Below are positions 32,690 to 58,557 of a stretch of DNA of 64,000 nt, in pieces. The first letter of the stretch is position 1. Each line of letters opens with the position of its first letter. Source of the stretch: Escallonia rubra (lineage: Eukaryota; Streptophyta; Magnoliopsida; Escalloniales; Escalloniaceae); the NCBI GenBank assembly GCA_033065855.1, contig JAVXUO010003028.1, forward strand, positions 52,262 through 116,261, read 5' to 3'. A program made the translations under genes and the position numbers. The notes beneath the pieces are model-generated. The model was not told where the DNA came from and ran no database searches. It saw only the letters and a program-made list of their open reading frames with translations.

Positions 32690-33400
32690 TATCACTACAA
32701 GAAAAGGCACTTTAAGTGACGGATAGTTCCGCTACTAAAATTCAACTTTACGTTGGTAAAGACTTTTAGCGACGGACCGTCTGTCGCTAAACTCTGTTGG
32801 CGAAAACCCCGTCGCTAAAAGATTAGCAACGAAATTTGGAGATCCGTCGGGAAAAATAAAACTTTTGCCGACGAAATTAATTATTTTAAGCGATGAAATT
32901 TTCCGTCACTAAGTATATTTTATCTAATTTCTTGGAAAAAATATTTTAAGAAACTTTTAGCAACGGAATTTCATTCGCTAAAAGTCCATCACAAATATTT
33001 TTTAGAAACATTCGTCGCTAAAAAATCTGTCTCTAAAAATATTTATTGATTTATAGAAGGGCTTTTAGTGACGGAATTCTGTCGCTAAAATTAAGAAAGG
33101 CTATTTTGTATTTTTTGTTATTTTTTTTATAAATTCAAACATGCTTCAAACAATTAACCATAACCAACCAATCCAACAACAATTTTAATTCTTTAAACTA
33201 GGATTCATCCTTCACTAAATTCCAAGTAACATAAATAAAATTATATCATATACACCACCAAGTAATACTCAATCCAACAAATTACATGTTCACTACATAC
33301 AATAGATCACATCGTACAAATCCCAAAAACAAAATTATAAGTTTCATGAAATGTAAAAAAATTTAAATCAAGATCCTTGCTCTTCGAGCCTTCACAATAT

Positions 33401-33769
33401 TTATCCATCCACAGTTGTTGCTTGTTTCTCTTTGTCGATCACAACCTGAACAGGAAGATCAGTTGTATAAATTCATTTACAAAGAACAAAATGAATAGAA
33501 GAAGACTACGTGTTAAATTTCAACCAAAAATCCAGTCAAAACCAGCAGCAATAAATTATGAAAAATCATAGAGCTAAAAACAATAATGGAATAGCTAATT
33601 ATTTAATTATATGATAGATGCGCTAGCGAAATTAGCAACCATCTAATAAATCTATATAGCTTCTATGAGCTAAGAGCACACTAGAGGTGCAAATTGTAAA
33701 TGAAACACGTAGCTGGAGTTTCAATGAAAAATGCACCTTAGCATAAGAAAATAAGCCACGCTCATGACC
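33401..33769 (-). pseudogene. Exon-like pieces in CACTA element 2
   Basis: 33769-33737 reads GHERGLFSYAK, bordered by CCCAG and GTGCAT. 33445-33401 reads VVIDKEKQATTVDG then TAA, preceded by a pyrimidine-rich stretch and TTCAG. These correspond to the pieces at 22366-22398 and 22737 in element 1. They look like the last exons of a small gene carried by both elements. Confidence 0.5.
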
Positions 33770-34979
33770 CTGGGATTAGATAACATAAGTAGTCCAAAAT
33801 TTTGATTATACTTTGTTTTCATATCAGCACAAAAGCTCATGGATACTTTACATTATTAAAGTCTTAAAGTTTAATGGGAGAAGCCATGCATCTTTGATGA
33901 CACAAATAACATAATCAAACTTACTGGTCGAGGAGCTGCATGCAAGGGGATGTTCACCTTATTCTTTTCTTGGTTGGGATAGAGTGGCTAGAAGGATATT
34001 GTCATAAGGAGGTATGAAAAACAGGGTCCCTAGTTTAACTGGGACAAAAACGACGACTAGAACTGACATGCTTTTGTAGAGAAAATGAGGGGAAGTAAGT
34101 TCCTAGATCATTTTCTTTCTTCTTCCCCATTTTGATTTTTTTTTTTTCTGTTTTCTCTGAGTAAAAATGCACCCCCGAAAAATAAGTCGAGGTGTTTACA
34201 AGCAGTTATTTAGTTGTTTTAACAATCAAGGGTTAAAAAGAGAAACAAAAACAAAAAGCGGGACAGTAAAACTGGGCAACCAAAAAACCAGAATATTAAA
34301 AAGGAAACAAGCTATGCCCCAGGCTAATAACAAAAGGAGCTAAAAGAAGGTGTTGAAACAATGTGCTACAAGAGAATGACGTACCATGGAAGTTAATAGT
34401 TGTATTTTAGAGCATAAAGGAATCCCAATGGTCAAAACCGACTTGGAAATATACATCATTCCTACTAACCACCTAAACCAGTCTAACAACATTCGAGTGC
34501 GTTAAGTAAGATAGTAGAACAAACCAGTAAGTAGAGCACGATATATGGGAAATAGCAAATTCAAGCATTCTGAAAAATTATAAGCTTTAACAGAATTTTC
34601 CCAAACAGGTTCAACACTAGTAAGCATTATGCTTTGCTTCACTGGGGGAAAAAAAGGAAGGAGGGGGTAGCAATTCTTGTAATAATGTATCTCTTTGACT
34701 TTGGCTTTTTTCCTAGATGTTTCCCTTCCTTCAATAATGTAAAGAAACAACTTAATTACCTATAAATAGATTGTTTCTATGTATTAGAAAAATAAAAAGA
34801 CAAATCCAGATACATTTCGAGCTTACACATTATCAGAATATAGAGGATTAGCTCACAGTATAACGATTTCTACTTATTTGAAAGGAGATGTATAGCATAC
34901 AAAGGACCAATAACTAACAAAATACAGACCAAGTTCTACAAGAATCAAGTTTCTTTCAATGATTTTTAGAATTTTGGGG

Positions 34980-35185
34980 CAAACAATAAGATTGGTATCG
35001 TTAATATGGTCAAATGTAAACAAATTACCTCCCGATGTTTTCTTTTTGGAGGACTGACTAGCTATGGCGCTACTATTTGTTTTGTTCTTTGTATTCTTTG
35101 TAGACCCTTCATTGTCTTCGGTGTCCGTATCCGACGCTGGGGGAATCATCTTCATCGTCACTCCACGGCATCGCCCTTTTCATGG
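34980..35185 (-). pseudogene. Acidic/Ser-Lys-rich exon-like piece in CACTA element 2
   Basis: After TTTTTCAG (minus strand, near 35195) an open frame carries PWSDDEDDS and, after an apparent one-base shift, SDTDTEDNEGSTKNTKNK and SQSSKKKTSG, followed by GGTAATTT, a possible donor. The charged composition is protein-like, but no family was recognised. It was not clearly found in element 1. Confidence 0.35.
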
Positions 35186-35840
35186 TATAAAGATGACTGA
35201 AAAACAAATAACAGAATCAAACTTACGCAAATAACATGCATTTTGGATACCTATAAATAACAATACATGGGCTTGATCTTCACCCATGTTGGCCGGTGAC
35301 CTACTGCTCTGAGATAGAGACGTGAAGGGGCACTATTGTAAAGCACTTCAAGATGAATAGATTGATTATGGACGGCAGTAGGCGGCAAAGCAGCGGGTGG
35401 GTGGATGGCTTGGGACTGCAGGAGCAGTAGGGTGGTTGGCAGCTTGGGATGTGGAGGTGGGAAGGCGTGGGAAGTGGGCAGCGAAGTAGTGTGAGAGAGA
35501 GAGAGAGAGAGAATAGGGGAAAGGTGAGCAGCGGGGAGAAAGAGAAAGGAGTAGGGTTTTGCTCTTTTAATTACCTTTAGCGACAGATTTTAGTCCGTCA
35601 CTAATACTCTTTTAAAAATTTGAAAAAAGGAGAAAATTAAAAAAAAAACAATTTAGCGACGGATTATTTCGTCGGTAATAATCCGTCGGTAAAAGTCCAT
35701 TACTAACAACCTTTATCGATGAATTTTTTGATGGTAAATGTTTTTAACAACAGACTTTTATCGACGGGCAAATCCATCGGTAACAGCTGCTTATAGCGAT
35801 GGATATCAGTTCGTCACTATAAATTGTTTTCCTTGTAGTG

Positions 35841-36916: not shown

Positions 36917-37496
36917 CATGTTAATAACACTAAAAAGGAAAAGGAAGTAGGTGGTGTGACACACATATTCGCAACACTAAAATCCCAAACAGAGCTACGT
37001 AGGGATGTTATTTTCTCATTATCATTCCTCTAGAGGGAACTATAGGCGACAAATATCATTTACTATGTTTATCTCGAACATTGCTACGAGTTTAATGCAT
37101 GTCTTGAGCATTGCTCATAGATGTTAAGTTGATGTAGACGCAAAAAGCAAAAAAGCAGCAGTAGTCTAATGTTTCACATGCAAGAATAAAAAGAAACACT
37201 TGACTACAAGTTGTACTGGTATATTTCACCAGTTGGATATTTGCTAGGCATGAGTTTTTGTTGCGAGAGAAACATAATATTGTCTCCGTGAGTGAGGACC
37301 ATTTGAGCCATGTGCACGTATACACTTCCTACATATATCAGAGAGAGAGAGAGAGAGAGAGATAGATGGATTTGTAATTTAGAAAGTATTATATTTACAC
37401 TTCTTGCCTCGAAGAGAGAGAGGGAGAGATATTTACTAATTTAGGCAGTATTATTGCACTCATTTACGAAAGAGTATCTTGCGGTAGTATATATCA
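35841..37496. other. Non-coding; several microsatellites
   Basis: Holds (GT)n(AT)n at 35841-35906, (AC)n at 36823-36844, (AT)n at 36886-36913 and (GA)n at 37341-37362. A pair of similar ~60-bp blocks with GAGAGAGAG and TAATTTAG..AGTATTAT lies near 37341-37460. No coding sequence was recognised. The left end of the outer CACTA element should lie here but no CACTA terminus is seen. Confidence 0.5.
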
Positions 37497-37506
37497 GAGT
37501 GATAGG

Positions 37507-37932
37507 TTGGGAGTTTGTCGACATGGGATTGTAGACGTTAATATGAGGTCAAGGCTCGGATCATACGAATCATTTGTATTTGCAGCTCAAGCAACGCAGG
37601 TCTTCTATGCAAAGGGTGTGGCAAGGAAGGACCCAAATTGGCATACTGTTATCAAGACCAAAAAAGGCATTGTTGATGATGATGTGTTCGTTGAGATGTA
37701 CCAAGACGATGATGCTCCCACGGTGATACCACTTTAAGAGGATAACGATCTTGTTGACGAGCCTCTTTGCGATTTAGGCCTTGCTGGAGAAGTGGTCGAT
37801 GATGATGATGATGATGATGATGATGACAATTCCGAGGAAGAAGTTGATGACGAAGAAGAAGACGATGAAGATGAAGGGGACGAAGATGACAATGAGGAAA
37901 ATGTTTTGTTGTCTATTAATGATAGTGATTGA
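37507..37932 (+). pseudogene. C-terminal fragment of TNP2 transposase (outer CACTA element)
   Basis: The frame GVCRHGIVDVNMRSRL, FVFAAQATQVFYA and WHTVIKTKK matches the C-terminal part of the intact TNP2 in this window (GIVDVNVKSRLASDEPFVFA and WYTTIKSKK at 45960-46100). A TAA at 37735-37737 interrupts it. The same frame continues through an Asp/Glu-rich tail partly encoded by (GAT)n and ends at TGA 37930. Everything upstream of this exon is lost. Confidence 0.85.
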
Positions 37933-38210: not shown

Positions 38211-38676
38211 ATGTCGAGATCCAGTGCACCCCAAGGTCATGGAGGTGGCCGTCGCGGACCTACTCCTGCACAATTAACCCCCTTCCCCAGGATTGGTGAC
38301 ACAACTATTGATAAGCAGCCGATGTCATCATCAGTAGCTTCAATAGATGGTGAGACAATATTAGTTTTGTGTCGAATTGAAACATATTTGTTGTGTGTGT
38401 GTGTGTGTCGTCTTCCTTTTTCATCGTTTATAGCGTCTAGTGCATCTGTACCTAGAGGTATCACATATGGGATACCTCTTCTAGCCACCCCGAAGCAGAG
38501 GATTACTGCTCATGTCCTCAAACATTAGTATGTTTTAATTTTTAAAGGTCAATTGTTACCATCGTTTAGCGCACCTATCTAACTTAATACTTTGTTATAT
38601 TGGGATTAATGTATATCTCTTGTGATTTCTTGTAATTAGCTTTTGTTGAGGATTGTGTTAGGACCAAAATCGGTCA
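38211..38676 (+). pseudogene. Second gene of the outer CACTA element, 5' part
   Basis: It starts MSRSSAPQGHGGGRRGPTPA at 38211. Exon 1 ends before GTGAGAC at 38349. An exon 2-like piece from 38434 reads SSASVPRGITYGIPLL. A third exon (from about 38640) carries VEDCVRTKIG and is cut at 38676 by CACTA element 3. By position and by its continuation after 48864 this is the TNPA-like partner gene. It was never complete after the insertion. Confidence 0.7.
38674..38676. other. Target-site duplication of CACTA element 3
   Basis: TCA here and TCA at 48862-48864 flank the two exact CACTA termini. Confidence 0.9.
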
Positions 38677-38999
38677 CACTACAAGAAAAGACATCTTTTG
38701 CGACGGAGTTTTAGCGACGGAATCGATTCTGTTGGTAAAATGAGTTTTACCGACGAAACCTCCGTCAGTAAAACTCCGTCGTAAAATATTATTTAAGCGA
38801 CGGATTTATTCCGTCGCAAAAAACTCCATCCGTGAAAATGCGTTTTACCGACGGAAACATCCGTCAGTAAAACTCCGTCGTGAAATATTATTTAAGCGAC
38901 GGATCTATTCCATTGCAAAAAACTCCGTCGGTACAAATAGGTCTTCACCGATGGACTTTTAGCGACGGAATAAATCTGTCGCTAAAAGTCTATTTAACT

Positions 39000-39295
39000 C
39001 TGAGATCTGGTTTGAACTGTCACTGCTTCTCTCTTCGAAAATCCCAAAACCCATTTCCGGCGATTGTGCCACCGCCGTTCTCACATCATGCCCCACCTTC
39101 GGCGCCACCGAAAGCCTCAACACCGGCGGCGACCTCCCTCCACACCGGCGGTGACTTCCCTCTACCCCGGCGGCGACCTCCCTCGACACCGGCGGTGACT
39201 TCCCTCGACCCCGGCGGTGACCTCCCTCGACAACGGCGGTGACTTCCCTCGACACGGCGGTGACCTCCCTCGACGCCGGCGACTCCCATCAGGTA
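39000..39295 (+). repeat. GC-rich minisatellite near the 5' end of CACTA element 3
   Basis: About seven units of 22-24 bp (CCGGCGGTGACTTCCCTCGA) follow a CTTCTCTCTTCGAAAATCCC block and precede GTAATTTTTT, a possible splice donor. It may be the 5' untranslated exon of the transposase transcript. Long ORFs on both strands here arise from the repeat and are not called. Confidence 0.8.
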
Positions 39296-39649
39296 ATTTT
39301 TTTGATAGTGTTTATTATCACTACCCATTATTTTATTTTATTATGTAAAAATTAAATGCCCTTTATGCTTCATTTTCGGTAGCAATCGCCGACAGTCACT
39401 CCGGCAAACTCTGATAGCCGTCCCCCACCGATCATCGCTGCCGTCCAACTCCAGCAGCCACCTTGGTCCGCTGCCTCTACCAACTAGAATAATGAAAATA
39501 ATCTCATCCAAAAATATGACTAGTTTCAAAGAAAATAAATTAGAAGCTAAAAAAGTTGACTCGTATTGTAAATGATCGAGTTAAGTGGCGTTGGATCTAG
39601 ATCGGATGGGACGGGACGGAATTGGGCAAGGGACATTAAAATTAAGATG

Positions 39650-40010
39650 ACGCAAACCCTAAACCCTAAGCCCTAATTGAATCGAATCCTAAATTAAACT
39701 AATTGAACCCCTAATTAAACCCTAAATTGATTGCCCCAATCTAACTGAACCCTAATTAAACCCTAAATTGAATGCCCTAATCCAACCGAACCCTAAATTG
39801 AACTAATTGAACCCTAAATTGAATGCCTCAAATCAACCGAACTCTAAATTGAATCAATAGAACCCCCTAATTGAACCCTAAATTGAAGTAAATGAACCCT
39901 AAATTGAATGCCCTAATCGAACCGAACCCTAAATAAAACTAATTGAACCCTAATTAAACCCTAAATTGAATGCCCCAATCAATCGAACCCTAAATTGAAA
40001 TAATTCAAGC
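39650..40010. repeat. Telomere-like degenerate array (AAACCCTAA-type)
   Basis: At least 20 occurrences of AACCCTAA, alternating with TTGAA(C/T). Plant telomeres are (TTTAGGG)n, so the core resembles them, but the regular ATTGAA spacer marks it as an internal tandem repeat of the CACTA element. Confidence 0.8.
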
Positions 40011-40610
40011 CCATCGGATATGTGAATTTTAAATTGAACTAATTTGAACATTGAATTTGTTTGATAATTTTAGGATGTTAATTTGAATTTTAGAATTGTG
40101 ATTATTGATCGATGATTTTAGGTTATTAGCTGTGCATTTGAAGTGCGATTATTAATTGATGATTTTAGGTTGTTAATTGAATTTTAAATTGAATGTGCAT
40201 TGAGCATTTGAGATATTAAATTATTGACGGAGGATTCAACCCATTGGATATGTGAATTTTGAACATTTTTTTTGCATTGAACATTGATCATTTGTTTGAT
40301 AATTTTAGGATGTTAATTGTGCGTTTTAGAATTGTGATTATTGATCGATGATTTTAGGTTATTAGCTGTGCATTGAAGTCATTGCGATTATTAATTGATG
40401 ATTTTAGGTTGTTAATTGATGATTTTAGATTGTTAATTGTGCATTGAGCATTTGAGATATTGAGATTATTGACGGAGGATGGGACCCAATTGGATTGAAT
40501 GTGTGATTTTTGTTAATTTTTATTGCATTGAGCATTTGAGAATTGAGAATTGAGATTGTTGACGGAGGATGAGACCCAATTGGATTGAGATACCTGTTAG
40601 TTAGCGCAGA
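40011..40610. repeat. AT-rich direct repeats with GATTTTAGGTTGTTAATTG
   Basis: Blocks such as ATTATTGATCGATGATTTTA, GTGCATTGAGCATTTGAG and TTGACGGAGGATG(G/A)GACCCAATT occur two to four times. The block recurs in reverse in CACTA element 4 at 58360-58560, so it belongs to the family. Confidence 0.75.
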
Positions 40611-40800
40611 CACGGACACCACGTTTTATCGACGGTGTCCAGCATTTAAAAAACAAATTAACGTATGCCGATGTGTCTGGAGGTGCGTGTCGGTGGGCGT
40701 CGGACACGTGTCCGGAGGCGTCGGACACGTGTAGAACACGTATCGGACACCATATCGACACCCTATATGAGGTGTCGGAATTGAGGTTGTTGAATATGCA
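40611..40800. repeat. Short GTGTCGGACACGTGT-type repeats
   Basis: Several palindromic GTGTC(C/G)GACAC-like units occur within 190 bp. They are expanded in CACTA element 4 at 58120-58340. Confidence 0.85.
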
Positions 40801-40859
40801 TTAAATTTAGGTTAGTTAGGTTAATGCGACATTTTTAGCATGCACCCCATGGAATCTAA

Positions 40860-41990
40860 TCGTGGCTCCAGCACCGGCTATAATTAGCCCTAATTAGTCC
40901 TGATTAACAATATTTTAGTAAATCAATTCACCCTAATTAGCTCTAACGAGCCTAATTAGTTTTAATTAACCATAAGAACCTGATGAAATTCAAATTAGCT
41001 GTAATTACCCCAAATTAGCCCAAATGAACCCAATTATGCGCATATTGATTGTAGTTAGCCTAATTAGTCATAATTTGCACTAACATAACCCAATTACGCC
41101 TAATTAGCGCTAGTTAGGACTAATCAACACTACTCGGCACCATCAAAACCCTAATTAGGACTAAATAACCCTAATTAGTCCTAATCAACCCTAGTCAGCT
41201 ATAATTATCCGAAACTATCCCTCATTAACATTAATTAGCTCTAACATAACCCAATTAAGCCTAATTAGCCCTAATTAGGACTAATCATCACTACTCGGCA
41301 CAATTAAACCCTAATTAGTCATAATCAACCCTAATTAGCTATAATTATCCGAAACTAGCCCTCATTAACATTAATTAGCCCTAACATAACCCAATTAAGC
41401 CTAATTAGCTCTAATTAGGACTAATCAGCACTACTCGGCACAATTAAACGCTACTTAGGACTAAATAACCCTAATTAGTCCTAATCAACCCTAATTAGCT
41501 ATAATTATCCGAAACTATCCCTCATTAACATTAATTAGACCTAACATAATCCAATTAAGCCCAATTAGCCCTATTTAGGACTAATCATCACTACTCGGCA
41601 AAATTAAACCCTAATTAGTCATAATCAACCCTAATTAGCTATAATTATCCGAAACTAGCCCTCATTAACATTAATTAGCCCTAACATAACCCAATTAAGC
41701 CTAATTAGCCCTAATTAGGACTAATCAGCACTACTCGGCACAATTAAACCCTAATTAGGACTAAATAACTCTAATTAGTCCTAATCAACCCTAGTCAGCT
41801 ATAATTATCCGAAACTATCCCTCATTAATATTAATTAGCCCTAACATAACCCAATTAAGCCCAATTAGCCCTAATTAGGACTAATCATCACTACTCGGCA
41901 CAATTAAACCCTAATTAGTCCTAATCAACCCTAATCAGCTATAATTAATAATCGTAATTAACCCTAATAACCCAGTTAGCCCTAATTAGC
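40860..41990. repeat. CTAATTAG array with alternating ~140/160-bp spacing
   Basis: The landmark TACTCGGCA occurs at 41131, 41292, 41432, 41592, 41732 and 41892, giving spacings of 161, 140, 160, 140 and 160. The true unit is thus a ~300-bp dimer. Units are nearly identical, with CCCTCATTAACATTAATTAG and AATTATCCGAAACTA as other landmarks. It is AT-rich with abundant CCTAATTAGG palindromes. Confidence 0.9.
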
Positions 41991-42311
41991 CCTTGTACAT
42001 CCCATAATTACTCCATGTTGCCCAGAGATGGTTCAATTACTCGTTGTTTACAAACCCTGCCTTCTTTATATTAATTGTTGTTTTGAGAAGTCCATTGGCA
42101 ACGAGATGGTTCAACTCGTTGCCAACGAGTTCTATTTAATGTGGAATTGGTAACATATGCAACGATCATTGTGTAGTTTTGATATTTCGGAAAGATTCTT
42201 GCATATCTTATCAATTTCTGAACACATGCATGCATAGAAACCCTTAGTTCCCGTTCAAAGGTACTCATTACAAAGTAATGCCTTGTAATGAGCCTTTGGA
42301 TGTCCAGTTTG

Positions 42312-42594
42312 GACAGTTTGGAAAAGCTAATTGTTTATAAAACAGTATTTTGACTCATGCTTTATGTTCTATGTCGTGGATATTTGGTACACGTTCTCGT
42401 GTGTTTCTCCGGGTGCATACAGATCTGGTGTTCTAACATCCGTCAAACCTTCCTGAGCAAGGTTAGATGAATGTTAGAACACCTAATCGATGTGGTGTAC
42501 TTGGAGAAATGCGGGGAGGTGCTGCCGAATTTTCCACAGACATCGGACTAAGCATGAGTTATTCACTGTTTTATAAACATGTGCTTTTCTGAAT
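42312..42594. promoter_or_regulatory. Large imperfect inverted repeat upstream of TNP2
   Basis: Left arm GAAAAGCTAATTGTTTATAA ... GGTGTTCTAACATC pairs with right arm ... GAATGTTAGAACACC ... GTTTTATAAACATGTGC. The central 25-nt stems (42430-42485) pair almost perfectly around CCTGAGC. The structure is preserved in CACTA element 4 (56710-56995). It ends about 140 bp before the TNP2 start codon, so it lies in the promoter or 5' leader. It could alternatively be an old fold-back MITE fixed in the family. Confidence 0.75.
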
Positions 42595-42734
42595 GGGATA
42601 GGACCACTACCTGTTCAAGAGTGGAGGGGAAATATGTAGACATGTTGTAACATTCATGCATTGATATTTACATCGGCAATGCCTAATCACTGGTCATTAT
42701 TGAAGGTGGTATACAGTACGATAATTCAGTCGTC

Positions 42735-45700
42735 ATGTCAGTCGATCGAAGTTGGATGAAAAGGAAGAATGCTGAAGATTTTGAGTGTCGCGTTGACGAA
42801 TTTCTCGACTTCGCTTATGCGCATCCTGCACATGTTGACCTTGATAAGATAAGGTGTCCGTGCGGTAGATGTGAGTTGTTGCACTGGAGAAAAAGAATTG
42901 AAGTAAAATGGCATCTTCGTCGGTACGGTTTTATGGGTGGATACACAAGGTGGACGCAGCACGGGGAAACGATAGTATTGTCGTCCAACCTGGCTAGTCA
43001 AACTGAAGTTAGGGAGGAGGCACGATATGATTTCCGAGATATGATTATGGATGTTGGGCATGCTAATGTTGACTGGGGTAACGACAGTCCACAACCGCCG
43101 AACGAGGGGGCTCATCAGTTTTATGAGTTGTTGAGAGCTGCGGAAGAGCCGCTGTGGGATGGAGCTCCGAAACACACACGGCTGTCTGCGGTTAGTAGGT
43201 TATTACAGTTAAAATCAGACCACGGGCTGAGTGAGAAAGGTTTTAACGAGTTTGTTACCTTCATCAAAGAAATACTGCCCGAAAGTGAAAAGCTACCGCC
43301 GTCGTACTATGACGCGAAGAAGATGATGAGGAAACTTGGGTTGAGCTATGACCGGATAGATGCGTGCAATAACGATTGTGTATTATTCTGGAAAGAGAAT
43401 AAGGATTTGTCATTATGTCCAGTATGTGATCATTCGAGGTACAAACCGGACAAAGGGAAGAAGAAAAACATTGCATGGAAGATATTGCGATATTTCCCGG
43501 TCACACCACGGCTTCAGAGAATGTACTACTCCTCCAGTACGGCTGAACATATGAGGGCTCACCGTGAGACTCGCAGCAACGATGCCGATGTGCTGACACA
43601 CCCAGCTGATGGAGAGGCGTGGAAGGAGTTTGACCGCAGGCATCCAGTCTTTGCTCAGGAAGTTCGGAATGTTAGACTTGGTCTGGCAACCGATGGGTTC
43701 AACCCTTTCGGTCAGTCTACCACGCCTTACTCCTGTTGGCCTGTTATTATTGTCCCTTACAACCTTCCACCAGGCATGTGCATGAAGAAGCCGTATATGT
43801 TCTTGTCGTTGCTTATTCCGGGGCCGAAGAGTCCTGGTAAGGACATAGATGTGTATTTAAGGCCGTTGATTGATGAGTTAAAACAATTATGGAATCATGG
43901 AGTCGAAACATATGATGCATCCCTTAAACAAAATTTTCAGATGAGGGCTGCTTTGATGTGGACTATACATGATTTCCCCGCATTGGGAATGACGTGTGGC
44001 TGGAGCACACATGGGAAGCTAGCATGCCCTGCTTGTATGGGCGTGAACCCCGGTCATACGTTAAAGCACGGCGGAAAGGCCTCGTGGTTCGGATGTCACC
44101 GTAAGCTTTTGCCACCGGGCCATCAGTTTCGTAGGCAGAAGGATAAATTTGACGGGACAATCGAGCGTGAGGTTGTCACACTGGACTACCCATCTGGTGA
44201 AGAAGTACTCTCACACCTGGAGGCACTTGATACTGACATACCACACGGTAAGGGTGTGCCGGATCAGAAGATTGCAGGGTTCGGGAAAGAGCACAACTGG
44301 AGAAAATTTTGTATCTTCTGGGAGTTAGCCTACTGGAGGACGCTCGTTATCCGAAACAACATGGATGTGATGCATATTGAGAAGAACGTTTTTGATAATG
44401 TGTTCAACACAGTGATGAATGTCAAGGGCAAATCGAAAGATCACCTTAAAGCGAGAAGGGATCTACAACAGTTGGGTGTACGCCGTGAATTGCATCCTCG
44501 GACAGTCAGTGGGAGGACCATACTTCCGAAAGCACCTTACTGTCTAGACAAGAAACAAGTGGAGAAGGTCTGTCAGTGGGTTAAGAATTTGAAGCTTCCG
44601 GATGGGTTTGCGTCCAACATATCTCGTTGTTGCAATGTATCGGAATGCAAGTTCCAAGGGATGAAGAGTCACGACTGCCACGTATTCATGGAGAGATTCA
44701 TTCCTATTGCCTTCCGGGGACTGTTGCCACGGGTTGTTTGCGAGACTTTGACTGAATTATCTCATTTCTTTCGAGATATATGCTCTTCTACGATCCGGGT
44801 GAGTAACATGGAAGTGCTTGAGAAGAACATTGTGGTGACGATTTGCAAGCTGGAGAAAATCTTCCCACCTTCGTTCTTTGATTCAATGGAGCATCTGCCT
44901 GTTCACTTGGCATATGAAGCTAAGATGGGTGGACCCGTGCAATATCGGTGGATGTATCCCTTCGAGAGGTAATCCTTAAATTGTTACAGTTGTTCGTTTA
45001 CACTTAATGCGACATCTGTTATCATTGATATTCCACCTAACTCGATTCGCTAAACTTCTAGGTTCATGTTCCATTTAAAGAAAAAAGTCCGTAATAAGGC
45101 TCGGGTTGAGGGCTCAATTGCGGAGGCTTACGTAATGGAAGAACTTGTAAACTTTTGTAGTCAATATTTCGGGCCTGATGTTGGTACAAGGTTAAATCAA
45201 CTAGGCCGAAATGATCCCGGAGCAAGCACAAATTTGGAAGGGCAATTGTCAATATTCAAGCAGTCAGGTAGTCCGTTCGGCCGAACGTATACTCGATGGC
45301 TAACAGATGAAGAGTACAGTGCTGCAACAATATATGCCCTTCTAAATTGCGATGAAGTTTCGGCATTCGTTGAGTAAGTTAAAGTCTTAATTCACTTACA
45401 TTGATGTACATAATTGAAAGTGTGTGTTAAGCGAGTTATATGCATATTGGTTTGCAGTGAGTTCGATGCGGAATCTTTAATAACTGATCCCGCTATACTT
45501 GAATCTCATCGGAAATCACAATTTGTACAGTGGTTCAAAATCCGTGTAAGATTATTTAATGAAATTATATTATGTGTTATATACAGTTCTGTGGCCAATT
45601 AGTATACTGATTTATCCTTAATTTTTACCGTCATCTACAATAGGTTCAGTCAATGGATAGACCAGTGGCCTCCTGCTTGAAATTACTAGCCGAAGGCCCT

Positions 45701-46393
45701 AACAAACAAACATCCTGTTACGGAGGCTATATCATCAACGGGTTTAGGTTTAACGTAAAAGATGATGACCGAACAAAACAAACCCAAAACAGTGGAGTCT
45801 TGGTCAACGGCGACTGTTATGCCGAGAATTGCATGGATTTTTACGGAGAGCTAGATGAGATTGTTGAGCTAACATATCTGGGTTCCCAAAACCGCCTGGT
45901 AATGTTCAAGTGTACGTGGTTCGATGTCACATGCAGTAGAGGAATCCGTGTTAGCTCTCAAGGGATTGTAGATGTCAATGTCAAGTCAAGACTTGCATCA
46001 GACGAGCCCTTTGTGTTTGCTAGTCAAGCTGTACAAGTCTTTTACGCGGAGGACGTCGCCAATCCCAAATCTCATTGGTATACAACTATCAAGTCCAAGA
46101 AATTGCCCGTGACATATGACAGTGAGCTAGACTCCTTTCAAGCCGACCAACCACGTGTCTTGTTCCCTGTTGAGGTCAACAACGAGGAGGACGATCTTCC
46201 TCTTCCAACAACACTTCTTGTGGGAGAAGAAGTCGTAGATGATGACGCGGAAGATGTTGAAAGTGTTGGAGATGATGTGACCGAGTCTACTGATGAAGAG
46301 GATGAATTAGAAGATGAAGAGGACGACGAGTCCCACGAAGAAGAGGGCGACGAGGAAAGTGATGAAGATGATTCGCAAACTGAAAATGATTGA
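42735..46393 (+). CDS. TNP2: TNP2-type CACTA transposase (4 exons, intact)
   Basis: Catalyses excision and insertion of CACTA elements, in the nucleus. Exons: 42735-44968, 45062-45373, 45458-45545 and 45644-46393. All introns are GT-AG, junction codons join in frame, and the total is 1128 codons with the stop, within the usual range. Domains: transposase-associated N-terminal region (residues 3-75; RSWMKRKNAEDFECRV, CPCGRCELLHW); Tnp2/Transposase_21 core (about 300-520; DELKQLWNHGVETYDASLKQ, HGKLACPAC); DUF4218 (about 620-745; GMKSHDCHVFMERFIP); DUF4216 (about 925-1000; DCYAENCMDFYGELDEIVEL); Asp/Glu-rich tail (1040-1127). No premature stop was seen. The ATG used is the first after the inverted repeat and matches the start in the diverged copy at 56599. 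Confidence 0.92.
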
Positions 46394-46473
46394 CTTGTAA
46401 TGTTGTAACATCACGGGAAAAATGTAGTAACATTTTAGAACTTGGTGTTTATTGATGTGTTTTTGCACATCCG

Positions 46474-46477
<4 letters not shown>

Positions 46478-46510
<33 letters not shown>
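46478..46510. repeat. (AT)n microsatellite between the two CACTA genes
   Basis: About 16 AT units. The equivalent place in CACTA element 4 (52905-52912) has only a few, so it expanded in this copy. Confidence 0.9.
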
Positions 46511-46512
<2 letters not shown>

Positions 46513-46575
46513 CCGATGATGATTTATGCCTAAATTATTGTTTTTCACGTGTTAATGTCTTTGTATATAATCTAT

Positions 46576-48166
46576 ATGAAGTCAGATATGGATAGGATAC
46601 GGGCTATTCGTGGCCGGGCTGGACGCCGAGCTGCTTCCTCCCCGGTTGGTCCCACCTCGTCATTGCCTACTGATGACGAGGCACAGAGTGATCGCGGACA
46701 GCCATCGGGGGCCCAGCCCCAGCCGTCACCGTCGCCCCAGCCCCATCCATCGCCGTCGCCCCAGCCCCAGCTCAAGCCGTCGCCCCAGCCCGACGCATAT
46801 TCATTCCACACGCGCGTGCATTCTCCATCTTCCGTGGGTTCTACCTCAGGTATAGTTGATAACGGTGTTTCGTACATTTTCGCTAGCCTTATATTTGAAC
46901 TGTATTAATGTCTGTGTTTTGTAGGATCTCGACGAGGCCGTGGTCCGACACGCGGGGTACGCATCGACCCCCAGCGTAAACAGAGAGTTACGCTCACGCA
47001 GGAGGGCCTGTAAGTACTAAAAATATCACCTCATGCCTTATGTTTAAAATTTTGGGGTGTTAATTTATATTTGAACTGTATTAATTAATTTAATTACTTC
47101 TTTGGCAGGATCCTGGAGAATATGGCGAGGACGAAGATCGGCGTTCTTGTGAAGGGCCGATTCTTCGAGCCACGCCTGTACTGGAAGGACTGGGATGCCG
47201 CTGCGAGGAAGGCCCTATGGGAGGAGTGGCTGGTACGGTGAAGTATTTTTTTCAGCGTTAGTAAATGTTAAATTACAGTTTGTTTTATGTTGTTAATTTG
47301 TGTTATTGAATGCCTTACAGGAGGGGTTCACGTTTGACACGCCTCAGCAGCAGGTACTGGGGCAGCAGGCTTTCTTTGCCTACATCGGCAAGAATTACCG
47401 CCGATGGCTCCACGATGCACGGGACCGGGCGAAGAAGGCGCTGCCCGCGGGTGCCCCGATGACGGACATGACGAGATATCCCCCACATTGGATATCTCAC
47501 CGTGTATGGGGGGAGATGATAGATCGGTGGGCTGCGGATCCAGGTTGGGACGCCAAGAGTAAGAGCGGGGCTGAGAACAGAAAGAACAGAGATCCGACGC
47601 ACACGGGGGGGTCGGTGCCACACGACATCGTCCGACACATGAACGCGGTCGAGCACCCGGATCTGGAGGAGGATGAGGTCATAGCTCTGACCTATACTCA
47701 GACGCACGTGCGGAAGAAGGACAAGGACGAGACGCACCGGGCGAGCGACTATATTTCAGATATTGCCCGGCGGATCGATGTGAGTCAATTTATTTAAGTT
47801 AATGTTTTTTCTTTCTATCCTCAATGTCTGTTTCGTTAATTAATGCCCTAACATATCGTTAAACCACTATTTTTGCAGGCCTCGTATGAACAGCTAAGGG
47901 GGTCCGAGCAGCAGTCCGGACAGCCATCAGCGTCCACTAGTACGGCTGCGAGTACTGGGGGGTTGAAGCGATGGCTGGATACGCCGGAGGTCGTGAATCG
48001 GCCGAAAGGCCGCATACGCGGCCTGCCTAGCACGACTGCTCGTGCCGTGATAGGAGCGTCCTCACCCCCTGCTGCCCCTCCACAGACACCGGCTCCTCGG
48101 CCTCAGTTGGACGACGAGGAGATCCAGCGCATTGCTACAGTGGTGTGCCGGATGATCAGGGAGTAG
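46576..48166 (+). CDS. Ptta/En/Spm-type CACTA accessory protein (TNPA/TNP1-like), 5 exons, intact
   Basis: Likely the partner protein that binds the subterminal repeats and works with TNP2, by analogy with En/Spm TNPA; this role is inferred. Exons: 46576-46849, 46925-47009, 47109-47232, 47321-47779 and 47879-48166. All GT-AG, all joined in frame, giving 409 aa; an ATG at 46549 would add nine residues. Exon 1 encodes a Pro/Gln/Ser-rich repeat (PSPSPQPHPSPSPQP). Exons 3-4 carry the Ptta/En/Spm (Transposase_24-like) region: GRFFEPRLYWKDWDAAARK, ISHRVWGEMIDRW and KNRDPTHTGGSVPHDIVRHM. The C-terminus is Pro-rich, ending DDEEIQRIATVVCRMIRE. Codon use is more GC-rich than the flanks. The downstream copy of the same gene (51320-52838) is broken. 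Confidence 0.85.
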
Positions 48167-48861
48167 GGCACTGCTGGACAGGCCGCCCCGGCCCCGGATC
48201 AGCAGGATCCAGATCCGGGACTCAGGAACCCCTTATGAGCCCCTTCACGTGCCCGTTCCTAGCTTCTCCCCCCCCGCCCCCCGCGCCCGGCTTGTACTCT
48301 TCTCCCTTCTCCTAACCGGCTATATCCGGTTCCCAGCTTGTACATATATGAGTTTTTTTTATAATAAATATTTTTTATAATTGATTATATATATATTTTT
48401 CTGTATTGATTATTGCGCGTTGTTGTTGAGAATTGAAAATTGTATTACAGGTCTGGGTAATTGAAAAAAAAAATTCAAAAAAAAATTTGACTTTTGGCGA
48501 TGGATTAATTCTGTCGCTAAAGTATTCCTACAACCAGTTATTTAGTGACAGAATATTCCGTCGCTAAATAAGTTTTCTAGCGACGGAATATTCCGTCGTG
48601 AAAATATCAAATCTGTCGCTAATTTGACAAAAAAGAAAATAAATTAAAATTCTAAAAAAATAATTTGCGACGGAATATCCGTCGCTAATGAAAAATAAAT
48701 CCGTCTGTAAAAATGACATATTTAGAGATGGATTTAAAAATTCTGTCGCTAAACTATTAGTGACGGGCTTTTATATGAGGGATATTTAGGGACGGTGAAT
48801 CCGTCGCTAATTCTTTTAGCGACGGATTTCCCGGTCGCTAAAACCATGTTTTCTTGTAGTG

Positions 48862-48864
48862 TCA
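48862..48864. other. Right target-site duplication of CACTA element 3
   Basis: TCA immediately after CTTGTAGTG; identical to 38674-38676. Confidence 0.9.
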
Positions 48865-50090
48865 TATTATCAAGGCCCACATCCCACGGCCTTATGCGAC
48901 ATGGAAGGCGTGGATGGAAGAAGACAAGGAACTTGTCTGTGGGAAGTTCTTGGTGAGGATTGTCTATTTCTAATTGCTTTATTTGGTTTTAGAAGTACAT
49001 TATTGCTGAATTTTTCTTGTTAATCGTGTTTGAAATTGTGTTGAATTTTGTTCATGACTATTTCAAATTTGAGTCCGACGGAGACCAAGAACTTGGATGC
49101 AGGCCTGGGAGTGGCATTGTTCTGAAAACTACAAGAAATGGATGCTCAATGCAAGGAGGCAAGCGCTAGCTCGAGCGGGTGCGACATAGATCTCTATTGA
49201 CAGGGACCACAACCCCGAGTACTTCTCAAAATCCATGTGGGGGTTGCTGGTGGGCCATTTGTGTACAACATATTGGGCGAAGCTGAGAGCGAGGCAAGGA
49301 TATGGCTCATAGCGAGAAGAAGATAAAGCATAGTGCTGGATCTTGTCCATATGTTGTGCACCAGATGAAGTTGAGAGAAGACGACCTTGCAAAAAGGCCC
49401 CCTACGATGCTCCAAAGCTTTGAGCACGCACACAAAAATAAATACGGGAAGTGGGTTTCTGAGAGCGCGGGGCAGTTCGGTGAGCACATAACTTTTGTAT
49501 TACTTTTGCATTCTTATTGTATCCTTATTGGTTACGGCTAGTTGCATTCTTCTAACATTTCTGTTGTATTCTTATACAAAGTTCATATAGAGAAAAGGTT
49601 TAGGCCAACTCCCAGGCATACGGTAGCCAATCAGTGGACAAGGTCTCTTTGTGGTCAGAAGCTATAGGGGGTCTTAAGAAGGACAATATGCTCGGTCTCC
49701 ATTGTCAATCCACACGTTCGTTGCTACGCAGAACTCAATCATCAGGCACGACCAGTTGTAGCAATCCTCAAGTTGAAGTGACGTATAACGAGCGCTTGGA
49801 CAAACTTCTTGAAGAAAAAATTACGAAGATGATCCAAGACGGTTTTACTATGCCCGGACCCAGACTTCAGGTACTACCAATTTTCTCAAGTAATTATGTT
49901 TTTTGGTCATTATATATGTGATCTTGATTTGTATATATTATGTTGAATCATTTGTATGCCTTCCCACATAGCGATATTGTGCCTAGTGCCGGTGATTCTC
50001 AGGGCGGTGAGGACATTGTTGGATCGAGCGTGCCTTCATTGTGGAATGAAGAACATGATGACGGGGTTGGTCGGTCTGCTGGCTGGTAAT
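48865..50090 (+). pseudogene. Second gene of the outer CACTA element, 3' part
   Basis: The exon cut at 38676 resumes here with IIKAHIPRPYATWKAWMEED and ends before GTGAGGATT at 48953. A following exon-like stretch (49104-49480) reads EWHCSENYKKWMLNARRQ, then KKIKHSAGSCPYVVHQMKL and HAHKNKYGKWVSESAGQF. This fits the conserved part of Ptta/En/Spm proteins (W...N..NR...H..GS). Further pieces are 49634-49870 (LDKLLEEKITKMIQDGF) and a short last exon near 49971-50087. Stops near 49190 and 49310 show decay. When read without element 3 and one TCA copy, the frame is continuous across the insertion point. Confidence 0.75.
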
Positions 50091-50630: not shown

Positions 50631-51319
50631 CACTACAAGAAATAAGGCTTTTAGCGACGAGAAAATCCGTCACTAAAAGCCTTAAATCTGTCGTGAAAAG
50701 TCCCTCGTTTAAAACCCCGTTATTAAAAGTTTTGCGACGGAATTTTAAAATCCGTCGTCTAATAATGAACTTTTTGCAATGGATTTACTTATAAATTAGT
50801 GACGGAGTTTCCGTCGCTAATTCTGTTTAAAGTATTTTAATTTATTTTCTTCTTTGTGAAATTAGTGATGGAATATAATATTTAGCGACGGAACATTCCG
50901 TCTCTAAATAAGATTTTTAATGACGGAATATTCCGTCGCTAAAAATCTTAGATTTAAGGACACTTTTAGTGACAGAATTAATCCGTCGCTAAAAGTCATT
51001 TTTTTACAATATTTTTTTATTTTTCTAATGCCTAATCTTGTAATAAAAAATTCAATCCTAAACAACAACTCATAATCCCCAAGACACAAACAACTATATA
51101 TAATCAACGTTAAAAATGTTTATTATAAACAAAACTCGTAATGTACAAGCCCAGAACTGGATACAGCTGGTTAGGGGAGGGGAGAAGATCGAGTACAAGC
51201 CGAGCGGGGGGGACAACCTGGGACCGGGCATGAGAAGGGGCTCATCAGGGGTTGTCGAGTCCTGGATCTGGATCCTGCTGATCTGGGTCCGGCTCAGCAT
51301 GTCCAGCAGGGGTGCCCTG

Positions 51320-52838
51320 CTAATCCTGCTCCCTGCTCATCTTCAACACCACTATAGCAATGCGCTGGATCTCATATTTGTCCAATGGACGCCGAGGAGC
51401 CGGTGTCTGTGGAGGGGCAGCCGGGGATGGGGACGCTCCTATCACGGCATGAGCAGTCGTGCTAAGTAGGTCGCGTATGCGGCCTTTCGGCCGATTGACG
51501 ACCTCCGACGTATCCAGCCATCACTTCAACGCCCTAGTACTCGAACCCGTACTAGTGGACATTGATGGCTGTCCGGACTGCTGCTCGGACCCCTTAAACT
51601 GTTCATACGAGGCCTGCAAAAACAGTGATTTAAAGATATGTTAGGGCATTAATTAACGCAATAGACATTGAGGATAAAAAGGCAAAAAATTAACAACTTA
51701 AACAAATTGACTTAAATCGATCTGCCGAGCAATATCCAAAACATAGTCGTAGGCCTGGTGCGCCTCGTCCTTGTCCTACTTCCGCACGTGCGTCTGATTA
51801 TACGTCAGAGCTATGACCTCATCCTCCTCCAGATCTGGGTTCTGGACCGCATTCATGTGTCAGAGGATGTCGTGTGCCACCGACCCCCCCATGTGCATCG
51901 GATCTCTGTTCTGTCTGTTCTCAGCTCTGCTCTTACTCTTGGCATCCCAGCCTGGAGCCACAGCCCACCGATCTGTCATCTCCCCCCATACAGTCAGAGA
52001 TATTTAATGTGGGGGATATGTCTTCATCTCCGTCTCGGGGCACCATCGGGCAGCATCTTTTTCGCCTGGTCCTGTGCGTCGTGGAGCCATCGGCGGTAAT
52101 TGTTGCCAATGTAAGCAAAGAAGGCATGTCGCCCCAGTGCCTATTGATCAGGCGAGTCAAACGCGAACCCATCCTGCAAGGCATTCAATAACAAAAATTA
52201 ATTTAGTAAACAAATTCTAATTAAACAAATACTATCGTAGAAAAAAATACTTCAACATAACAGCCACTCCTCCCATAGGGACTCCCTCGCAGTGGCATCC
52301 CGGTCCTTCCAGTACAGGCGTGGCTCGAAGAATCGGCCCTTCACAAGAACACCGATCTTCGTCCTCGCCTGATTCTTCAGGATCCTGCCAAAGAAGTAAA
52401 TAAATAAATTAATACAGTTCAAATATAAATTAACACCCCAAAATTTTAAATATAAGGCATGATGTGATTTTTTTTACTTACTGGCCCTCCTGGGTGAGCG
52501 TAACTCTCTGTTTACGCTGGGGGTCGATGCGTACCCCGCGTGTCGGGCCACGGCCTCGTCGAGATCCTACAAAACACAGACATTAATACAATTCAAATAT
52601 ACTTTAAATATAAGGCTAGCGAAAATGTACTAAACACCGTTATCAACTACACCAGAGGTAGAACCCACGGAAGAAGGAGAATCAACGCGCATGTGGGATG
52701 AATCAGCATCTGCTGTACGCGAGCACTCTGTGCCTCATTATCAGTGGGCAATGATGAGGTGGGACCCACCGGGGAGGAAGCATCTCGGCGTCCAGCCCGA
52801 CCATGAATAGCCCGTATCCTATCCATATCTGACTTCAT
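51320..52838 (-). pseudogene. Broken Ptta/En/Spm-type gene of CACTA element 4
   Basis: Same exon order as the gene at 46576-48166. It starts MKSDMDRIRAIHGRAGRR at 52838, and the Pro/Gln repeat of exon 1 is shortened and out of frame. Exon 2 (about 52567-52483), exon 3 (52386-52263) and exon 4 (about 52174-51715) are recognisable by RKQRVTLTQ, GRFFEPRLYWKD and GGSVAHDIL-like sequence. There are frame breaks and the exon 3 donor is changed. It cannot encode the full protein. Confidence 0.85.
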
Positions 52839-52995
52839 ATAGATAAATTGTAAAGACATTAACACATTAAAAACAATAATTTGGCAGAAATCATCATCGG
52901 CACTATATATATGAACGGAGGTGCAAAAACACATCAATATGAACCAAGTTCTAAAATGTTACTACATTTTTTCCGTGATGTTACAACATTACAAG

Positions 52996-55900
52996 TCAAT
53001 CATTTTCAGTTGGGAATAATCAACATCTTCATCACTAGACTCTTCGTCCTCTTCTGTGTAGCCCTTGTCGCCCTTTTCATCTTATAATTCATCCTCTTCA
53101 TCAGTAGACTCAGTGACGTCATCTCTAACACTTTCCACATGAAGTGTTGTTGGAAGAGGAAGATCGTCCTCCTCGTTGTTGACCTCAACAGGGAACAAGA
53201 CAGGTGGTTGGTCGGCTTGAAAGGAGTCTAGCTCACTGTCATATGTCACGGGCAATTTCTTGGACTTGATAGTTGTATACCAATGAGATTTGGGATTGGC
53301 GACGTCCTCCGCGTAAAAGACTTGTACAGCTTGACTAGCAAACACAAAGGGCTCGTCTGATGCAAGTCTTGACTTGACATTGACATCTACAATCCCTTGA
53401 GAGCTAACACGGATTCCTCTACTGCATGTGACATCGAACCACGTACACTTGAACATTACCAGGCGGTTTTGGGAACCCAGATATGTTAGCTCAACAATCT
53501 CATCTAGCTCTCCGTAAAAGTCCATGCAATTCTCGGCATAACAGTCGCCGTTGACCAAGACTCCACTGTTTTGGGTTTGTTTTGTTCGGTCATCATCTTT
53601 TACGTTAAACCTAAACCCGTTGATGATATAGCCTCTATGACAAGATGCTTGTTTGTTAGGGCCTTGAGCTAGTAATTTCAAGCAGGAGGCCACTGGTTTA
53701 TCCATTGACTGAACCTATTGTAGATGACGGTAAAAATTAAGGATAAATCAGTATACTAATTGGCCACAGAACTGTATATAACACATAATATAATTTCGTT
53801 AAAGACTTACACGCCTTCTGAACCACTATACAAATTGTGATTTTCGATGAGATTCAAGTCCAGCAGGATCAGTGATTAAAGATTTTGCATCGAACTCACT
53901 GCAAACCAATATAGTTGACTCGCTTATCACACATTTTCAATTATGTACAGCAATGTAAGTGAATTAAGACATTAACTTACTCAACGAATGCCGAAACTTC
54001 ATCGCAATTTAGAAGGGCATATATTGTTGCAGCACTGTACTCTTCATCCGTTAGCCATCGAGTATACGTTCGGCCGAACGGACTACCTGACTGCTTGAAT
54101 GTTGACAATTGCCCTTCCAAATTTGTGCTTGATCCGGGGTCATTTCGGCCTAGTTGATTTAAACTTGTATCAATATCAGGCCAAAAATATTGACTACAAA
54201 AGTTTACAAGCTCTTCCATTACGTAAGCCTCCGTAATTGAGCCCTCAACCCGAGCCTTATTGCGGACTTTTTTCTTTAAATGGAACATGAACCTAGAAGT
54301 TTAGCGAATCGAGTTAGGTGGAATATCAATGATAACAGATGTCGCATTAAGTGTAAACGAACAACTGTAACAATTTAAAGATTACCTCTCGAAGGGATAT
54401 ATCCACTGATGTTGCACGGGTCCACCTATCTTAACTTCATATGCCAAGTGAACAAGCAGATGCTCCATTGAATCAAAGAACCAAGGTGGGAAGATTTTCT
54501 CCACCTTGCAATTCGTCACCACAGTGTTCTTCTCAAGCACTTCTATGTTATTCACCCGGATGGTAGAAGAACATATATCTTGAAAGAAATGAGATAATTC
54601 AGTCAAAGTCTCACAAAATACCCATGGGAACAGTCCCTGGAAGGCAATAAGAATGAATCTTTCCATGAATACGTGGCAGTCATGACTCTTCATCCCTTGG
54701 AACTTGCATTTCGATACACTGCAACAACGAGATATGTTGGACACAAACCCATCCGGAAGCTTCAAATTCTTAACGCACTGACAGGCTTTCTCAACTTGTT
54801 TCTTGTCTAGACAGTAAGGTGCTTTCTAAAGTATCGTCCTCCCGCTGACTGTCTGAGGATGCAATTCACGGCGTACACCCAACTGTTATATCTCTTCTCG
54901 CTTTAAGCTGATTTTTTTTATTTCCCCTTGACATTTATCACTGGGTTGAACACATTATAAAAAAAACATTCTTCTCAATATGCATCATATCCATGTTGTT
55001 TTTTATAACGAGCGTCCTCCAGTAGGCTAACTCCTAGAAGATACAAAATTTTCTCCGGTTGTGCTCTCTCCCGTACCCTGGAATCTTCTGATCTAGCACA
55101 CACTTGCCGTGTGGCATGTCAGTATCAAGTGCCTCCAGGTGTGAGAGCACTTCTTCACCAGATGGGTAGTCCAGTGTGACAAGCTCACGCTCGATTGTCC
55201 CGTCAAATTTATCCTTCTTCCTACGAAACTGATGGCCCGGTGGCAAAAGCTTACGATGACATCCAAACCATTAGGGCTTTCCACTGTTCTTCAACGTATG
55301 ACCAGGGTTCACGCCCATACAAGCAGGGCATGCTAGATTCCCATTTGTGCAACAGCCACACATCATTCCCAATGCGAGGAAATTATGTATCGTCCACATC
55401 AAAGCAGTCCTCATCTAAAAATTTTGCTTAAGGGATGCATCATATGTTTCGACTACATGATTCCATAACTGTTTTAACTCATCAATGAACGGCCTTAATA
55501 CACATCTATGTCCTTGCCGGGACTCTTTGGCCCCGGAATAAGCAACGACAAGAACATGTACAGCTTCTTCATGCACATGCCTGGTGGAAGGTTGTACGGA
55601 ACAATAATAACAGACCAACAGGAGTAAGGCATGGTAGACTGACCGAAAGGGTCGAACCCATTAGTTGCGAGACCAAGTCTAACATTTTGAACCTCTTAGG
55701 CAAAGACTGGATGCCTGCGGTCAATCCCCTTCCACGCCTCTCCATCAGCTGGGTGTGTCAGCACATTGGCATCGTTGCTACGAGTCTCACGATAAGCCCT
55801 CATATGTTCAGCCATATTGGAGGAGTAGTACATTCTCTGAAGCTGTGGTGTGACCGAAAAATATTGTAATATCTTCCATGCAATGCTTTTCTTCTTTGTT

Positions 55901-56599
55901 TTGCCCGATTTGTACCTCGTATGATCACATACTGGACACCGTGACAACTCTTTATTCTCTTTCCAGAACAATACACAATCGTTATTGCACGTATTTATCC
56001 GCTCATAGCTTAACCCAAGTTTCCTCATCATCTTCTTCGCATCATAGTACGACGGAGGTAGCCGTTCACTTTCGAGCAGAATTTCTTTGATGAAGGTAAC
56101 AAACTCCTTAAAAGCTTTCTCACTCAGCCCGTGGTCTGATATCAATTGTAATAACCTACTAACTGCAGACAACCGTGTGTGTTTCGGAGCTCCATCCCAT
56201 AACAGCTCTCAATAACTCATAAAACTGATGAGCCCTCTTGTTCGGCGGTTCGGGACTGTCGTCAACATTAGCATACCCAGCATCCATAATCATATCTCAG
56301 TAATCGTACTGTGCCTCCTCCCTAACTTCAGTTTGACTAGCTAGCTTGGACGACAATACTATCGTTTCCCCTTGCTGCATCCACCTTGTGTATCCACCCA
56401 TAAAACCGTACTGATGAAGATGCCATTTTACTTCAATTCTTTTTCTCCAATGCAACAACTCACATCTATCGCACGGACACCTTATCTTTTCAAGGTCAAA
56501 ATGTGCAGGATGCACGTAAGTGAAGTCAAGAAATTCGTCAACGCGACACTTAAAATCTTCAGCATTCTTCCTTTTCATCCAACTTCGACCGACCAACAT
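52996..56599 (-). pseudogene. Broken TNP2 transposase of CACTA element 4
   Basis: It starts MLVGRSWMKRKNAEDFKCRV at 56599, parallel to the intact copy. Exon 1 is divided by stops or shifts into blocks 56599-56297, 56172-55696, 55618-55415, 55246-55034 and 54765-54382. Exon 2 (54288-53977) and most of exon 4 (53705-53082) remain open, with DFYGELDEIVEL present. The acidic tail is shortened and shifted. Overall similarity to the intact gene is high, so decay is moderate. It could only be a source of truncated protein or antisense RNA. Confidence 0.9.
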
Positions 56600-56709
56600 G
56601 ACGACTGAATTATCACACTGTATACCACCTTCAATTATGTAAATATGAATGCATGAATGTTACAACATGTTTATAAATTTTCCCTCCATTCTCTAATAGG
56701 TAGTGGTCC

Positions 56710-56995
56710 TATCCCATTCAGAAAAGCACATGTTTATAAAACAGTGAATAACTCATGCTTAGTCCTATGTCTGCGGAAAATTTGACAGTACATCCCCGCA
56801 TTTCTCCAAGTACACGACATCGATTAGGTGTTCTAACATTCATCTAACCTTGCCTTGGATGGTTTGACGGATGTTAGAACACCATATCTGTATGCACCCG
56901 GAGAAACACACGAGAACGTCTACCAAATATCCACGACATAGAACACAAAGCATGACTCAAAACACTATTTTATAAACAATTAGCTTTTTCAAATT
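56710..56995. promoter_or_regulatory. Conserved inverted repeat upstream of the TNP2 pseudogene
   Basis: GGTGTTCTAACATTCATCTA pairs with TTGACGGATGTTAGAACACC around TTGCCTTGGA (56829-56885). Outer arms contain GTTTATAAAACAGTG and CACTATTTTATAAACAA. It has the same position relative to the TNP2 start as in element 3. Confidence 0.75.
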
Positions 56996-57289
56996 GTCCA
57001 AACTGGACATCCAAAGGCTCATTACAAAGCATTACTTTGTAATGAGTACCTTTGAACGGGAACTAAGGGTTTTTATGCATGCATGCGTTCAGAAATTGAA
57101 TACATATGCAAGAATCTTTCCGAAATATAAAAATTGTAGAAAGATCGTTGCATATGTTACCAATTCCACTTTAAATAGAACTCGTTGGTAATGAGTTGAA
57201 CCATCTCGTTGCCAATGGACTTCGCAAAACAACAACGAATATAAAGAATGCAAGGTTTATAAACAACAAGTAATGGAACCATCTCTGAG

Positions 57290-58350: not shown

Positions 58351-58557
58351 CTAACATATATCTCAATCCAATTGGGTCTCATCCTCCGCCAACAATCTCA
58401 ATTCTCAAATGCTCAATGCAATAATAATTAATAAAAATCACACATTCAATTTAGTTAGGTCCCATCCTCCGTCAACAATCTCAATATCTCAAATGCTCAA
58501 TGCACGATTAATAGTCTTTAATCATCAATTAACAACCTAAAATCATCAATTATTGAA

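Follow-up and report, generated by a model that had tools for sequence, protein, structure and literature searches.

A near-complete CACTA transposon inserted in an older CACTA element of Escallonia rubra

We analyzed a window of 64,000 nucleotides from the genome of Escallonia rubra (assembly GCA_033065855.1, contig JAVXUO010003028.1, positions 52,262 to 116,261 of the forward strand), and describe here a CACTA element located at 38677-48861, which we call E3; all coordinates are 1-based positions in the whole window. The same 13 nucleotides, CACTACAAGAAAA, are found at 38677 and at 48861 as inverted repeats, forming the left terminus (38677-38689, plus strand) and the right terminus (48849-48861, minus strand, TTTTCTTGTAGTG). 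The element is flanked by identical 3-bp target site duplications (TSD) of TCA, at 38674-38676 and 48862-48864. Inside each terminus lies a subterminal array of the short motif GCGACGGA, direct and inverted (38690-39000 on the 5' side and 48490-48848 on the 3' side). Exact occurrences in either orientation numbered six in 38677-39000 and six in 48490-48861, against a mean of 0.01 and a maximum of 1 in 200 dinucleotide shuffles of each end. When up to one mismatch was allowed, each of these two end regions had 11, compared with 8 in the intervening 9.5 kb.

Between the arrays, on the plus strand, are two predicted genes. The first one, TNP2, has four predicted exons (42735-44968, 45062-45373, 45458-45545 and 45644-46393) that sum to 3384 nt and encode 1127 aa. 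Its product matches the domains Transpos_assoc, Transposase_21 (PF02992; E=1.9e-85), DUF4218 and DUF4216, each near full length, with DUF4216 and an acidic tail encoded in exon 4. Exon 1 encodes motif I (residues 313-337), the aspartates D320 and D413, and a CXXC motif at residues 431-434. This agrees with the Transposase_21 motif I given in PMC1636069, from which we took the assignment of the catalytic residues; the two aspartates are 93 residues apart in E3, versus the 80 told there for SmTRC1. E3 thus appears to encode a TNP2-type transposase with acidic catalytic residues. A search with a 744 aa TNP2 query gave no relatives in collections of viral and prokaryotic contigs, which says little because these comprise viruses and prokaryotes. 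AlphaFold2, run without an alignment on 463 residues, gave a mean pLDDT of 35, unusable for fold comparison.

The second gene, which we refer to as the partner, has five predicted exons (46576-46849, 46925-47009, 47109-47232, 47321-47779 and 47879-48166; 1230 nt, 409 aa). Exon 1 contains a proline-rich 24-bp repeat (46712-46791), a match to Transposase_24 begins in exon 4, and the stop codon lies at 48164-48166. The gene pair has seven GT-AG introns and zero internal stops in either gene. The exact splice junctions are predictions, since alternative GT/AG sites would leave the frames open as well (in 6 combinations for TNP2 and 72 for the partner). A preliminary description of this DNA had proposed exact CACTA termini with identical TCA duplications, dense subterminal arrays and two genes whose nine exons all join in frame (TNP2 of 3384 nt; partner of 1230 nt from 46576), and our analysis recovered each of these, with the same figures.

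Upstream of TNP2, a TATTTAA at 38991-38997 (plus strand) is a possible TATA box, in a region that aligns with the matching segment of E4, a related element in the same window. It is followed on the same strand by a possible untranslated leader exon (39020-39292), whose end reads CAG|GTAATT and whose predicted acceptor is near 42716. The long intron-like stretch in between (39293-42716, plus strand) is rich in CCCTAATTAG-type repeats, including a 300-bp unit present in 2.9 copies with 94% matches (41071-41947). A related array was found in E4 (57398-57997). Together with an AATAAA at 48363-48368 (plus strand), a possible polyadenylation signal, these features suggest that a promoter near 38991 may drive one transcript unit in E3.

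The sequence around E3 belongs to an older CACTA element. To the left, on the plus strand, are the end of its TNP2 (37432-37929; DUF4216 with E=6.8e-9, then an acidic tail) and the left half of its partner exon 3 (38651-38676). To the right, also on the plus strand, are the other half of this exon (48865-48952) and a Transposase_24-like stretch (49287-49541; E=1.5e-5, 25.6 bits, below cut-off). When the flanks of E3 are joined without one TCA, they encode EDCVRTKIG-HIIKAHIPRPYATWKAW, a peptide that aligns with partner exon 3 of E3 itself with a score of 60, the highest score in 2000 shuffles being 46. We also considered the length of the open frame across the empty site, which was uninformative (57 codons versus a control median of 66); it is the similarity across the junction that counts. 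We then searched the genome assembly (566 Mb, 3222 contigs). The joined flanks (471 nt) matched without interruption at the junction in 40 out of 40 scored places, at 87-91% (the best 40 of 219 candidates), and the right flank alone gave 320 candidates, with at least 39 further places at 81-87%. The empty site in these relatives and the joined peptide show that E3 jumped into partner exon 3 of an older CACTA family. A CACTA right end followed by TAC is found at 61174, while its own left end is absent from the window; it can probably be assigned to the older element hosting both E3 and E4.

A genome-wide search for near-identical copies, suggested as a check in the preliminary description, was fruitful. 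Full-length matches to TNP2 exon 1 (2234 of 2234 nt), at an identity that rounds to 100%, were found in at least 39 other places (best 40 of 1979 candidates). Compared base by base, 16 copies had 3 or 4 differences from E3 in this exon; three of these set E3 apart from 15 or all 16 of the copies, and one alters an amino acid. It had been supposed that most copies of such elements are broken. This was not borne out for TNP2 among sister copies chosen by a near-identical exon 1: 29 were fetched around this exon, and the gene was open in all 26 that cover it entirely. The right end CTTGTAGTG was carried by 22 of the 25 right ends fetched. In 15 copies inspected for both ends, we found the left end in 10, of which 9 have matching TSDs (the exception being C1477). 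The copies are not all separate events, since two of them, C1913 and C211 (L044, L051), have identical flanks over 289 of 289 positions, and are thus one insertion represented on two contigs.

With its ends, duplication, arrays, open frames and domains, an empty site in relatives and near-identical TNP2 at dozens of places, all directly observed, E3 is best explained as a cut-and-paste transposon of the CACTA (En/Spm) type, near-complete and belonging to a large family that multiplied recently, inserted in partner exon 3 of an older CACTA copy (probability about 0.92). Its biology is that of an ordinary CACTA element: a well-preserved element of a known type, whose insertion and family are now documented. 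By analogy with En/Spm, TNP2, as a DDE-type transposase, would cut the CACTA ends and join them to a target staggered by 3 bp, so that insertion would yield the 3-bp duplication. For the partner, a Transposase_24-like protein of the TNPA type, binding to the GCGACGGA arrays is the most likely role, along with help in uniting the ends. This analogy with TNPD and TNPA follows PMC2613891, PMC8195511 and PMC5105172.

Several results weigh against this explanation. The match of the partner to Transposase_24 (PF03004; E=4.3e-6, 27.4 bits) is below the cut-off of 28.7. At the position of the E3 partner stop, 22 assembled sisters have CAG in 19 cases, CAA in one and a gap in two; in 15 of the 22 the partner continues for 23 codons beyond this point, and the other 7 differ. 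Three of eight sister bodies have a partner open up to E3's stop and five a broken one, which may mean that few partners work or that the assembly is faulty at this gene. Part of the extreme sameness of exon 1 comes from the selection of the sample, because sisters were picked by exon 1 identity. Finally, the best other genome matches were 97% for the 5' 624 nt of E3 and 94% for its 3' 692 nt (best 40 each). Had a sister jumped very recently, closer matches would be expected, unless assembly is poor at the ends.

The preliminary description had called E3 apparently intact and possibly autonomous. A CACTA element with two open genes and a complete TNP2 stands, whereas intactness is put in doubt by a partner that ends at a codon read as CAG or CAA in 20 of 22 assembled sisters. 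Judged from the sequence, E3 may or may not be autonomous: in favour are a TNP2 with four domains, motif I and both aspartates, and its near-identical places in the genome, and against are the partner stop and the borderline Transposase_24 match. It comes close to an even chance that E3 is non-autonomous as it is, depending for any movement on proteins from sisters in which both frames are complete. The codon that the sisters have in place of the stop argues for this, as do the three of eight sister bodies with a partner frame open beyond that point, and E3 may depend on its sisters because its own partner ends 23 codons before most of theirs. The stop may be a real mutation or a consensus error, the latter because the assembly is demonstrably uneven inside these elements: C1913 and C211 differ at 29 of 897 sites, though at just 1 of 184 over 48100-48299. 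That E3 is fully autonomous, both proteins working and the shorter partner being harmless as the lost tail lies outside the Transposase_24 match, seems rather unlikely. Both frames are open, the Transposase_24 match (residues 222-367 of 409) precedes the stop, and TNP2 exon 1 has only one amino acid change private to E3 among the 16 copies compared; the tail present in most sisters is nevertheless absent from E3. Open frames would also be expected if the gene pair had been domesticated by the host, which is hardly credible on these data given the ends, the arrays, the TSD and the dozens of dispersed near-identical copies.

The preliminary description also took E4 (50631-60874, minus strand, TSD CTA) to be broken, as it clearly is. 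This relative of E3 lies 1.77 kb beyond it, in opposite orientation, and is 88.6% alike over 5.2 kb. Read in the frame of E3, its TNP2 contains 10 stops and its partner 5; there are also frame-changing gaps and two altered donor sites, and both D320 and D413 have become asparagine. From E3 to E4 we counted 226 C>T plus G>A changes, against 102 in the reverse direction, and CpG was lost at 80 sites in E4 versus 21 in E3 (p 2.7e-9), as in the decay of methylated dead elements. The dN/dS ratio (nonsynonymous to synonymous changes) between E3 and E4, computed column-wise in E3's frame, was 0.43 for TNP2 and 0.72 for the partner; as E4 is dead, we do not read these values as evidence on selection. 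Over 45723-46154 (E3 numbering), E4 has 1 difference in 432 positions, against 424 in 4820 elsewhere; within this patch 316 nt are identical at every base (45839-46154 of E3, in TNP2 exon 4, and 53519-53204 of E4). This patch has the appearance of copying from one element to another. E3 and E4 were inserted separately and lie tail to tail, and 1561 of 10165 E3 21-mers recur reverse-complemented in E4; a transcript reading through both could fold into a hairpin, which we note as an arrangement only and keep as a lead on silencing.

Across the sister copies, the gene core is uniform and the ends are divergent. Exon 1, the selecting probe, differs between copies by 0.00-0.11% per segment, and its unselected neighbours differ more, by 0.56% in intron 1, 0.68% in exon 2, 1.1% in intron 2, 0.16% in exon 4 and 0.4-1.0% in the 900 nt upstream. 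At the 3' end, copies are 4-5% apart, with identities of 92.2-98.3% and a median of 95.3%. Several types can be told apart at the 5' end: E3, C1477, C771, C2969 and C1516 form one (80-97%) and C3160, C2953, C2359 and C1849 another (88-96%), while the 5' ends of C211 and C1389 are each about 70-75% like the others. Elements of different 5' types share about 7 kb at 97-98%. Two further copies, C2283 and C3072, resemble E3 at 97% and 95% in their 5' ends and at 92% in their 3' ends, and both fall outside the best 40 matches to exon 1. Purifying selection was rejected as the sole cause of the uniform core, as the introns are alike too (0.4-1.1% between copies), though exon 4 is lower. An earlier idea, that no two copies share ends and that all insertions are therefore old, was dropped since C1913 and C211 are a single insertion. 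This pair also helps to judge how well repeats were assembled.

It is somewhat more likely than not that identical cores with divergent ends are an effect of assembly, with reads from many copies pooled together or polished to differing degrees; this would make the cores too alike, and the ends, the arrays and the proline-rich exon too different. The insertion assembled twice as C1913 and C211 points in this direction, as its 29 differences (17 private to one version, 14 transitions) come with 79 gap columns in the 3' part of the element. At the 3' end of 22 copies, 140 of 176 two-state columns are singletons, and transitions (90) hardly outnumber transversions (86). Several contigs end inside the element. 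The proline-rich exon 1, where the assembly is likely to contain errors, holds much of the variation among sister partners. Most or all of the variation at the 3' end can be put down to uneven consensus. The 5' types cannot, as they differ by about 25-30%, beyond noise, and recur; nor is an assembly effect favoured by the TSDs that match across elements, or by the 316-bp stretch identical to E3 in an E4 diverged by about 9%. Alternatively, one core of TNP2 and partner may have been passed between CACTA elements that kept their own 5' ends and promoters, through gap repair by synthesis-dependent strand annealing after excision, a form of repair described in PMC4423477. The patch in E4, where the rest of the dead gene is about 9% diverged, would be a possible small instance of such an exchange. 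We regard this possibility as improbable, having lowered its odds because a single insertion assembled twice differs at so many sites. Among the titles listed in searches on conversion or chimerism in CACTA and other DNA transposons, none concerned core exchange, which says nothing of the published record as a whole.

The window contains other features. A CACTA-like element at 19860-23508 (TSD TAC, left end CATTACAAGAAA), in which no transposase was found, has ends related to those of E3 and to those of a second short CACTA-like element at 32693-35840. The two short elements, in opposite orientation, are 82% alike over 1187 nt and 77% over 631 nt; the second adjoins a GT/TA microsatellite, and its flanking triplets, TAT and TGT, differ. 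Judged by eye, open frames resemble a two-exon cytochrome P450 (6973-8787, minus strand), a decayed long interspersed nuclear element (10982-16395, plus strand) and a Ty3/gypsy integrase (29889-30593, minus strand).

Complete CACTA copies with large sets of near-identical kin are good material for asking which copies move and what the second protein does, and E3 offers an empty site, TSDs and kin together. If a shared core with several types of 5' ends were true, DNA transposons would keep their proteins uniform while swapping ends; core exchange would let a family change promoters, and perhaps escape silencing directed at the ends, with its proteins unchanged. E3 also brings two cautions: a frame seemingly intact in one copy may prove short against its sisters, and the consensus of repeats in assemblies can mislead.

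Among known systems, E3 resembles maize En/Spm and the rest of the plant CACTA superfamily in its CACTA ends, 3-bp TSD and subterminal repeats, and in having a TNPD/TNP2 transposase with a predicted second protein (PMC2613891, PMC8195511, PMC5105172). En/Spm makes two products from one alternatively spliced transcript (PMC2613891), whereas the frames of E3 are consecutive, as read from the DNA. The putative autonomous CACTA elements TpnA1 and TpnA2 (Ipomoea nil) and Tgmt* (soybean) are likewise rare copies with both transposase genes among many relatives (PMC5105172, PMC2613891); they are backed by transcripts, while E3 is known from sequence alone, and here there are dozens of open TNP2 copies. 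Mu killer of maize (PMC3440606) offers a parallel to the related, inverted E3 and E4, 1.77 kb apart with a potential read-through hairpin; unlike it, E3 and E4 are separate insertions with the divergence given above, and the parallel lies in their arrangement. Jozin and other dicot CACTA elements have TAD, Transposase_21, DUF4218, DUF4216 and Transposase_24 (PMC8978399). In contrast to the Jozin group, E3 has its Transposase_24 match in a separate predicted gene, and neither of the two E3 proteins scanned showed a peptidase domain; with that group it shares the order of the TNP2 domains and internal tandem repeats, and its borderline Transposase_24 match likewise falls in the second region.

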